Below are positions 29,655 through 45,358 of a stretch of DNA of 48,550 nucleotides, in pieces (positions within the stretch are counted from its first letter, which is position 1; each line of letters opens with the position of its first letter). The DNA is from Chloroflexota bacterium. Its GTDB lineage: Bacteria > Chloroflexota > Anaerolineae > DSLN01. Where the stretch lies: contig CADDZL010000001.1 of assembly GCA_902812335.1 (NCBI GenBank), forward strand, positions 1-48,550, in the 5' to 3' direction. A model generated the notes under the pieces. That model was not told the origin of the DNA. It saw only the letters and a program-made list of their open reading frames with translations, and did no database searches. The position numbers and the translations under genes are program-made.

Positions 29655-31862
29655 TCAGTCGTCCGCCTGATGACTGACGAGCGCTGGCTGAATAGGGAGC
29701 TGAATCTGAATTCTCGTTCCTTCCCCCGCTTGCGACCGAATCTGGAAGCTGCCACCGAGAAGCTCAACCCGTTCGCGCAGGCCCAACAAGCCCAGGCTAT
29801 CGCCGGCCCGGGCGCGGCGCAGCGCCCGGTTTACATCAAAGCCCACACCATCGTCGGTGATGGTCAGGGCAACGCTGTCGCGCCCACGCTCCCGTTCCAG
29901 GCAAACGGAGACGTTGCGGGCGCTGGCGTGCCGGGCGATGTTAGTTAACGCTTCCTGCGCGGCGCGGTAACACACGGTCTCTATTTCAGCCGGCAGGCGC
30001 TCGTCCAGACCGATTTCCTCAAAACGGCTCCGCATGCCGGTGCGCTCAGCATGACGGTCAATATACCAACGCAGCGCCGGTACCAACCCCAGGTCATCCA
30101 GCATGGAGGGGCGCAACTCGACCGACATGCGGCGCACCTCTTCCAGCGCATTCTGGCTTAACGTTTGGGCGTCCTCGATGGCGCGCTTGACGGCCTCATT
30201 CGGCTGGGGCAATAACTGCGTCATCATGCCCAGATCAAGCGCGATGGCTGTAAGCGCCTGGCCGATCTCATCGTGCAACTCGCGCGCCAAACGGCGGCGC
30301 TCTTCCTCCTGCGCCTGGACGATCTGGGCCGACAAGACACGGAGTTGCTCACGACTATCCGTGATGGCAGCGAACAGGCGGGCATTCTCGATAGCCACAG
30401 CCGCCTGGTTAGCCATGGCTTGCAGCAGTGACAGGTCAGCCTCGGAGAAGATCGGTTCGCTGAACGTATCCAGATTCAGGCAACCGATGATCTGCCCCTG
30501 TGCCGCCAGGGGAACACAGACCTGGCTGACCAGCAGCGGCAGGGATAGGTCAGGCGATCCCTGTGCTCGCCCCAAAGCGCTCCACAACCGCAATATCTCG
30601 GGGCCGGTCGTGGCAAAGTACGGCTCGAATTCGGCGGCGGACGTCAGGCGCAGCGGTGTGCCACTGGCGTACACCGCGCCGATAGTCGCCTCACCGGGGC
30701 GCAACTGATAATGGTCGGTCAACTGCTCACCCCACCCCCTCTCTCCAAGCTTAGGAAGAGAGGCAAGCGGTGAGGGATTATAGCCATGCACACCAGCCAA
30801 TTCGAGTGCATCGTTGAGCGGGTTATATAGCCATAGCATCCCCCTGGCAGCCGGTGCGATGGCAGCGACTGCTTGGGTGAGCACGATCTCATACAGCCGG
30901 TCCGGTTCGAGCGTCAGTGTGAGCGACCGCGACAGGTCGAGCAGAGCCGCCAATTCGAGGTTACGATGGGCCAGTTCAGCAGCACGCTGCCCAATCTCGT
31001 GAAACAGCCGGGCATTCTCAATGGCGACGGCCAGTTGCCCTGCCAATGCCATTAGCAACTGCTCGTGATGCTCGCTGTAGGCATTCAGCGCGATGCTCTC
31101 CAGTTTGATCGCGCCCACAGCCCACTTACCGATGTGCAGCGGCACACACAAGATAGAGCGGATGTCCGGCCGCTGGGCCATATAAGGCGGGTCGCTCTGA
31201 TCACGCACGTCGCCCAAGCGCACCGGCTGGTTATGTTGAGCTACCCAGCCACTGATACCCTCGCCCAGGGTGCGATGTGACACCGATTCCGCAGTCAGCA
31301 TCTGCGCATCCGGATGTCGCTCTCGGACCAGGAAGGGGATAAGCTCACCTGTGGCCTCTTCAATGAGAAACACTTCAGCATACTCATAGGGCAGCAACCG
31401 TTCGAGCACCTGGGTCAGCGCATCGGCCAGCCGGTCAAGTTGCAGGCTCTGGCTCAGCGCCATTGTAGCCTCATGGAGCAAAGCCAGTTCGTCCAGGCGG
31501 CGCTGGCGCTCCTCCTGGCTTGCCTCCAGTGCGGCAACCATGCGGTTAAAGCTATCCGCCAGCCCCCCGAGTTCATCGTCCGCCGGTGATGGCAGGCGAA
31601 CGGTCAGATCGCCGTTGGCGACGGCTCGCGCTGCGCGGTTCAATTCCCGTAAAGGGGTTTCGACAGTCCGACTGAAGAGAATGCCACTGCCAATAGCGAC
31701 CAGGCTGGCAGCAATGATGAGCGCCAGGTCAGAGAGAGGATGGTCCGGCTCCACCAGGAATTCGTAGCCGGGAAACAGGAAGAACGGTACGCTGATGAGC
31801 AGGATGAGCGCGATCAGCCGTTTGCGAATGGTCCAGCGATACCTGTTTCCCGGCCCCTTCAT
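29655..31862 (-). CDS. Membrane NarL-type sensor kinase with HAMP, two GAFs and HisKA_3
   Basis: This is a 735-residue kinase. Two membrane helices (about 16-32 and 44-66) with a very short loop between them are followed by HAMP (about 62-118). GAF1 (about 135-290), GAF2 (about 310-490) and a HisKA_3 dimerisation domain with His530 (LARELHDEIGQAL) come next. The HATPase has YRAAQEALTNIARHA and TDDGVGFD. Residues ~362-379 in GAF2 (NPSPLASLPKLGERGWGE) are encoded by a palindromic repeat at 30726-30776 and interrupt an otherwise normal GAF sequence between LAGVHGY and LTDHYQLRPGE. With hardly any external loop, the GAFs probably sense a cytoplasmic signal. It is in an operon with the NarL-type regulator. 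Confidence 0.9.
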   Translation of the reverse strand: MKGPGNRYRWTIRKRLIALILLISVPFFLFPGYEFLVEPDHPLSDLALIIAASLVAIGSGILFSRTVETPLRELNRAARAVANGDLTVRLPSPADDELGGLADSFNRMVAALEASQEERQRRLDELALLHEATMALSQSLQLDRLADALTQVLERLLPYEYAEVFLIEEATGELIPFLVRERHPDAQMLTAESVSHRTLGEGISGWVAQHNQPVRLGDVRDQSDPPYMAQRPDIRSILCVPLHIGKWAVGAIKLESIALNAYSEHHEQLLMALAGQLAVAIENARLFHEIGQRAAELAHRNLELAALLDLSRSLTLTLEPDRLYEIVLTQAVAAIAPAARGMLWLYNPLNDALELAGVHGYNPSPLASLPKLGERGWGEQLTDHYQLRPGEATIGAVYASGTPLRLTSAAEFEPYFATTGPEILRLWSALGRAQGSPDLSLPLLVSQVCVPLAAQGQIIGCLNLDTFSEPIFSEADLSLLQAMANQAAVAIENARLFAAITDSREQLRVLSAQIVQAQEEERRRLARELHDEIGQALTAIALDLGMMTQLLPQPNEAVKRAIEDAQTLSQNALEEVRRMSVELRPSMLDDLGLVPALRWYIDRHAERTGMRSRFEEIGLDERLPAEIETVCYRAAQEALTNIARHASARNVSVCLERERGRDSVALTITDDGVGFDVNRALRRARAGDSLGLLGLRERVELLGGSFQIRSQAGEGTRIQIQLPIQPALVSHQADD
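30726..30776. repeat. Palindromic repeat inserted in a GAF domain
   Basis: CTCACC (30726-30731) pairs with GGTGAG (30769-30774), and CCTCTCT (30738-30744) pairs with AGAGAGG (30757-30763). The encoded peptide SPLASLPKLGERGWGE is the typical readout of the CCCCTCTCCCC...GGAGAGGGG dispersed repeat family. The insert keeps the frame. Confidence 0.6.

Positions 31863-42968: not shown

Positions 42969-45358
<2,390 letters not shown>

Follow-up and report, generated by a model that had tools for sequence, protein, structure and literature searches.

A gene for a sensor histidine kinase in a Chloroflexota genome of the class Anaerolineae carries a palindrome in frame within one of its GAF domains, and this raises the question of whether a dispersed repeat has added protein sequence to a sensor domain or whether the segment is an ordinary loop. 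The window analysed here is a stretch of 48,550 nucleotides, and its features are collected in Table 1. The palindrome had been noticed in a sequence-only reading, whose coordinates (30726-30776) proved exact, and the insert of about 17 residues described there corresponds to exactly 17 codons in the 735-aa ORF. Its plus-strand letters are CTCACC...GGTGAGGG (51 nt), and on the minus strand they encode PSPLASLPKLGERGWGE, residues 363-379, flanked by LAGVHGYN before and QLTDHYQLRPGE after; without PSPLASLPKLGER, the peptide from the insert, the junction would read LAGVHGYN-QLTDHYQ. The peptide had been located correctly, although the 16-letter version given for it lacked the first P. The name NarL-type kinase, used in the same reading, fits the HisKA_3 and HATPase_c domains, and a response-regulator-like ORF, read by eye, adjoins the gene.

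Table 1. Features of the kinase gene and of its palindromic insert, in window positions.
Feature	Position	Strand	Basis
Host gene, HAMP-GAF-GAF-HisKA_3-HATPase_c sensor histidine kinase, 735 aa	29655..31862	-	ORF and domain scan
Second GAF domain (GAF2) with flanking helices, holding the insert	30360..30974	-	Alignments and AlphaFold2 model m52c0efe63fff
Palindromic repeat copy, 51 nt, 17 whole minus-strand codons, in frame	30726..30776		Leave-one-out model R2, E 7.7e-9
Outer stem, left arm CTCACC	30726..30731		Centroid fold
Inner stem, left arm	30738..30746		Centroid fold
Loop with AAGCTT core	30747..30753		Sequence and fold
Inner stem, right arm, one bulged base	30754..30763		Centroid fold
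Outer stem, right arm GGTGAG	30769..30774		Centroid fold

In the centroid fold the segment is an imperfect two-stem palindrome, with nine pairs and one bulge in the inner stem. Its folding energy was -9.9 kcal/mol, against -7.06 ± 1.72 for shuffled versions (z -1.65), and 17 of 200 shuffles folded equally well; by itself, the strength of this hairpin is unremarkable and constitutes weak evidence. Strong evidence that the palindrome is real comes from its membership of a family. A leave-one-out covariance model (R2), made from 8 copies elsewhere in the genome with the window copy left out, recognised the latter with E 7.7e-9 on the minus strand and 6.2e-6 on the plus strand, the runner-up match within the 48.5-kb window having an E of 0.34, in such a way that 30726-30776 is the sole clear copy there. 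Rfam gave two matches only (E 0.49 and 0.77), both far below their gathering scores and outside the insert.

A model that included the window copy produced 124 rows on both strands at E<=0.01, corresponding to 65 separate places in the genome (3.52 Mb, 370 contigs), a lower bound because scoring was limited to 150 of 841 first-look candidates; the model had been trained on 9 of these places, and a contig end lies within 150 nt for 12 of the 64 places with a surrounding stretch. The family recurs in unrelated genes and between genes. Its members are about 50-60 nt long (46-62 nt in most copies) and G+C-rich, with the ends CCTCACC and GGTGAGG, an inner stem CCCCTCTCCC/GGGAGAGGGG and often AAGCTT in the loop. 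Among 53 main-family copies, 205 of the 318 reading frames, about two thirds, are free of stops. Comparison of the arms in 48 copies gave 49 compensated cells versus 35 ± 5 in 300 shuffles of the halves (maximum 52), and 873 paired cells versus 860 ± 7; these compensated changes are modest, which is what a palindrome that first spread and later decayed should show, and they are not decisive. Pattern searches for the element were discarded as too rigid, with 21 and 19 matches in the reversed control against 33 and 37, and they missed the window copy because its spacing differs from the patterns.

The model also cross-detected in the same genome a second, related-looking palindrome family, CCTCTCCCCC...GGAGAGG (CCTCTCC type), mostly 51 nt long, with examples at C18:13597-13647, C276:26-76 and C84:7327-7377. 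Assigned by eye, it accounts for 8 of the 60 copies with both flanks and is included in the counts of 65, 64, 24 and 60 given in this text. A further palindrome (CCGGGCTTGAGCCCGG type) is nested in the loop of each of two copies (L001 66-154 and L013 100-172).

The genome-wide count proposed in the sequence-only reading, which came to at least 65 places here, had been coupled to the share lying inside genes. This was studied at 64 places, the remaining one, on contig C234, having no covering stretch. With the requirement of a frame running through the copy and of at least 60 codons with positive codon scores on either side, 24 of the 64 copies are in coding-like frames (main family 22/56, second family 2/8), counts that rest on ORFs and codon scores. 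The 23 proteins other than the window's own were scanned with Pfam, and nine of them also with NCBIfam. A single family stretch covers the insert in 13 of the 23, these being CtaA/COX15, HATPase_c, PurL, pyruvate-ferredoxin oxidoreductase, a GcvT-like protein, SMC, two P-type ATPases, a glycosyltransferase, a xanthine-dehydrogenase-type protein, RimO, TatD and a molybdopterin oxidoreductase. The RimO match across the insert reaches 451.8 bits, above the equivalog cut-off of 357, and those of PurL, pyruvate-ferredoxin oxidoreductase and the xanthine-dehydrogenase-type protein (L143, L145 and L030) have NCBIfam E values of 1e-103 or less but scores below the whole-protein cut-offs, these proteins having been trimmed to 400 residues on either side of the insert. 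No profile above cut-off crosses the insert in the other 10 of the 23 scanned proteins. Pfam gave no match in three proteins. Inserts also lie between domains: between lipoyl and E3-binding domains, where the RACo linker borders the middle region, and before the UvrB-interaction domain of an Mfd-like protein. Inserts in two P-type ATPase paralogues of the own genome occupy different sites.

Two further proteins of the same genome (L150 and L175), membrane proteins by eye and 44% identical to each other, carry inserts in about the same loop, one of the main and one of the second family, so that either an inherited insert or a hot spot could be involved.

The rate at which genes span the repeat was compared with random expectations, using copies at least 400 nt from either end of their stretch and keeping the second family separate. 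Frames ran through 20 of 41 main-family copies and 1 of 6 of the second family. Random 55-nt segments of the same stretches were spanned in 1703 of 3000 cases (57%), and copies placed at random within coding ORFs left the frame open in 192 of 1500 (13%); therefore, genes span the repeat nearly as often as they span random sequence, but with the frame kept. Selection against frame-breaking copies is the simplest account of this pattern. No split gene was recognisable at the nine of 40 non-spanned copies that were tested by scanning both neighbouring ORFs (eight of these copies were of the main family). In eight of the nine pairs both ORFs have matches, with different leading families, among them L166, where two complete ketosynthase-type enzymes have a weak Thiolase_N match in common; the ninth pair (L148) has a match in only one of its ORFs.

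The sequence-only reading had called for an alignment with orthologues lacking the insert. The alignment made here used 30 GAF domains, found at 22 loci in other genomes and obtained as tblastn matches covering nearly the whole query, which are domain homologues and not close orthologues. The palindrome's 17 whole codons coincide with a gap of the alignment in the other GAF domains, in such a way that 28 of the 30 hold 0-6 residues in the 17 columns of the insert, and the other two (L095 and L101) hold 10 Pro/Thr-rich residues of a sequence unlike the insert. The segment is thus absent from all 30 aligned domains, and conservation in distant GAF homologues, named in the sequence-only reading as what would refute its interpretation, was not seen among them. 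The two domains with 10 residues mean that the loop at the insertion site is variable anyway, and GAF2 itself, as the alignment shows, has another long stretch around residues 410-440. Most of the stretch between GAF2 and the kinase core is matched by one homologue (L079), which shows 40% identity in that match and has two residues in the insert columns, and a scan of the genome collection for close kinase homologues returned 11 distant relatives and no close one. Because no close relative was found, the sequence comparison demonstrates the empty site for the GAF domain, and not for an orthologue at the DNA level.

An AlphaFold2 prediction of GAF2, made with four sequences, gave a GAF fold with a mean pLDDT of 79.9 (model m52c0efe63fff). 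The sole segment of at least three residues with pLDDT under 50 comprises model residues 67-86, and the insert occupies 67-83, which places it in the loop that follows the second beta strand. In the model, the insert looks like a flexible loop. The sequence-only reading had asked whether the insert lies in a surface loop, and the prediction places it in a low-confidence loop. A Pro/Gly-rich insert, LPPPRSPPLGGMKGGVMG, lies elsewhere in the GAF domain of a protein from another genome (G053, L047 2218-2769) and looks as if it were coded by another repeat.

The family extends beyond its own genome. With the model lacking the window copy, at least one match at E<=0.001 was found in 53 of 80 genomes of the class, own genome included. 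Stretches with strong copies were taken from 12 other genomes, selected among the best-scoring matches at the top of the list; they contained 46 places, of which six weaker ones were dropped and 40 examined. Coding-like frames run through 19 of these 40 copies, in 7 other genomes, and one Pfam stretch extends over the insert in 8 of the 10 proteins scanned out of the 19. The hosts include the editing domain of leucyl-tRNA synthetase (LeuRS), a CinA-like protein, a DEAD helicase and an alpha-L-fucosidase.

LeuRS was compared among eight genomes of one family at the loop after the EVI(R/K)P motif. In one of them (G060) this loop contains the CCTCACC palindrome (model E 1.2e-12), and in a genome of another genus (G088) it contains a longer member of the same family (E 2e-7); five of the seven orthologues with which G060 was compared at this loop are without the CCTCACC palindrome. 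In two genomes, G027 and G212, the loop holds a short palindrome, GGGCGACTC..GAGTCGCCC (GGGGCGAC/GTCGCCCC), self-complementary at 20/20 and 18/20 bases, and the GGGGCGAC/GTCGCCCC motif, with two mismatches allowed, occurs at 4 places in the former genome and 7 in the latter, with 0 in the reversed control. In G178 the loop has CCTTCGACAGGCTCAGG, weakly self-complementary (10/17) and present at 16 places of that genome, again with 0 in the reversed control. None of the three repeat types was found in the loops of G222, G129 and G110. The exact boundary of the insertion is not readable because the flanking codons differ too much. Of the observations at the DNA level, this series speaks most strongly for an insertion and for tolerance of the loop. 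Another LeuRS loop, ahead of FTTRPDTLWG, shows other repeat-like inserts by eye, AT-rich in G178 (L229) and TGATCA-type in G088 (L230). Tentatively, with a chance that we put a little short of even, several unrelated dispersed repeats across the class may continually introduce in-frame peptides at the same tolerant loops of proteins that are conserved and even essential; if so, repeat insertion would be a regular source of changes in loop length, with LeuRS as a model case.

The palindrome had been called mobile in the sequence-only reading. Its dispersal into unrelated genes agrees with this word and suggests a transposition-like arrival, but the signs of a specific mechanism that were sought, a target-site duplication and a linked Y1 transposase, did not appear. 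Direct flank repeats of k=2-8 were no commoner at 60 copies than with shuffled partners. The CCTCACC/GGTGAGG ends are terminal inverted repeats of the MITE type. As for the end tags of REP elements, GTAG was found near the ends of 3 of the 60 copies, CTAC of 0, CGTC of 2 and GACG of 4, so that the GTAG/CGTC tag does not characterise the family. The transposase search covered the Y1 family (PF01797); the own genome has two such genes, and 26 partly overlapping loci came from 9 other genomes. The model found no palindrome at the two own loci; copies at E<=0.001 occur in 4 of the 28 loci, none of them within about 0.8 kb of the transposase. One locus (L251, in G046) has three copies surrounding the transposase within 1.5 kb, two of them at E<=0.001, the nearest being weak (E 0.032) and about 0.4 kb away; they fall in neighbouring ORFs, and by eye a different repeat directly flanks the transposase. 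A RAYT transposase as the mobiliser was consequently rejected, since no palindrome directly flanks the gene at the 28 Y1 loci (2 own, 26 elsewhere).

The repeats that do flank the transposase of L251 (1290-2030) are of the CCCGCTGAAGCGGG and GGCGGTT...AACCGCC types, and they are probably that enzyme's own REP family. One 468-aa frame of the own genome (L031 1477-2883, G000:C164) combines a receiver domain with a Y1 (IS200-like) transposase domain; this unusual fusion might represent a domesticated transposase.

The best-known coding palindromes are those of Rickettsia. The Rickettsia palindromic elements (RPEs) are described as in-frame fusions in 19 reading frames (Ogata et al. 2000, via PMC2229807), with an active RPE-bearing guanylate kinase as the tested case (PMC2229807); the precedent is also cited in PMC6649704. 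The repeat described here resembles RPEs in that palindromes are dispersed between and inside genes and give in-frame extra residues in conserved proteins. It differs in size, RPEs being 105-146 bp long (PMC2229807) whereas most copies here have 46-62 nt, in being G+C-rich and in belonging to a different bacterial class; moreover, a CGTC end is reported for the RPEs of R. conorii (PMC3733652), and CGTC or its complement is near the end of 2 and 4 of 60 copies here. The behaviour matches that of RPEs, a likening that claims no sequence kinship.

REPs, according to PMC3733652, fall into GTAG and CGTC superfamilies and are predominantly extragenic, with some inside genes, and its authors find it plausible that the population was purged of genes inactivated through insertion. 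The present family shares with them short dispersed hairpins, of which REPs have most between genes and some inside, but the terminal GTAG/CGTC is mostly absent, no RAYT gene is adjacent, and coding-like frames span 20 of 41 copies. MITEs with translated reading frames, such as Correia/NEMIS, ERIC and others, have 100-200 bp according to PMC2229807; they are alike in being small non-autonomous repeats fused in frame to genes, and the terminal inverted repeats are present here, whereas our copies are shorter and show no target-site duplication, the search for a parent being limited to Y1 transposases. Thus, the family belongs to the protein-coding palindromes and, by its defining tag, is not a GTAG/CGTC REP. 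A limited literature search on such repeats in Chloroflexi/Anaerolineae found none beyond PMC3733652, in which Chloroflexi are mentioned once.

These observations establish a repeat family, its dispersal, the preservation of the frame, its position inside conserved domains and its absence from other GAF domains. Very probably, they reflect a decayed, dispersed, non-autonomous palindrome that inserted in the kinase and that is kept in genes only where frame and fold survive. A non-autonomous palindrome would have inserted into the kinase gene. Because about two thirds of its reading frames are stop-free, copies of frame-keeping length could be translated, giving a peptide of about 15-21 residues that is rich in Pro, Ser, Gly and Glu. 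Selection would remove insertions that disturb the frame or strike a core element, and those in tolerant loops would persist, decaying by point mutation. In the kinase, the peptide would lengthen the GAF2 loop after the second beta strand; we infer translation of this peptide and a neutral, or close to neutral, effect on signalling.

An ordinary, lineage-specific G+C-rich GAF loop with a palindromic look by chance, and no element inserted, could invoke the variable length of GAF loops, with 10 residues in 2 of the 30 domains and a long stretch at residues 410-440, as well as the weak z-score of the fold taken by itself. This reading is strongly disfavoured, and we give it hardly any credence, in view of the leave-one-out E of 7.7e-9, of the same sequence in unrelated genes and between genes, and of 17 whole codons that coincide with the alignment gap. 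Bypass elements are known from yeast mitochondria, and dispersed GC-rich hairpins in coding regions resemble them, so the palindrome might be skipped by the ribosome or removed from the RNA or the protein as an intron or intein. Skipped elements need not keep the frame or avoid stops, in such a way that the in-frame copies (20 of 41, against 13% by chance) speak against skipping, as does the result that, of the 9 non-spanned copies tested out of 40, none was seen to break the frame of a recognisable split gene; and 51 nt is far below the size of inteins or known self-splicing introns. Skipping or removal is accordingly very improbable.

It seems highly unlikely, too, that the insert was recruited, either to alter ligand binding or signalling by the GAF domain or as an RNA hairpin tuning translation of the kinase. 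Roles in transcription termination and mRNA stabilisation have been proposed for REP-type repeats (PMC3733652), the LeuRS of two genera have the element in the same loop, and two paralogues of the own genome have inserts at about the same loop; yet tolerant loops also explain such shared positions, the inserts lie in unrelated proteins and domains, the copies have diverged, and the kinase insert is predicted at low confidence, like a flexible loop.

With the decayed, inserted palindrome as the preferred explanation, a small G+C-rich repeat of another class is found in RimO, TatD and PurL, and in the LeuRS of a relative, with the frame kept, and the natural series of insertions together with insert-free related genomes makes the neutrality of such peptides testable. 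As a caution for annotation, repeat DNA can be the source of Pro/Ser/Gly-rich stretches in the predicted proteins of this class.

Elsewhere in the window, a gene that by eye looks CTP-synthase-like (42969-45295, minus strand) is interrupted by a direct duplication with identical copies. These 300-nt copies, at 43418-43717 and 44056-44355, are spaced by 638 bp, which is not a multiple of three, and they represent either a real tandem duplication or an assembly fault.
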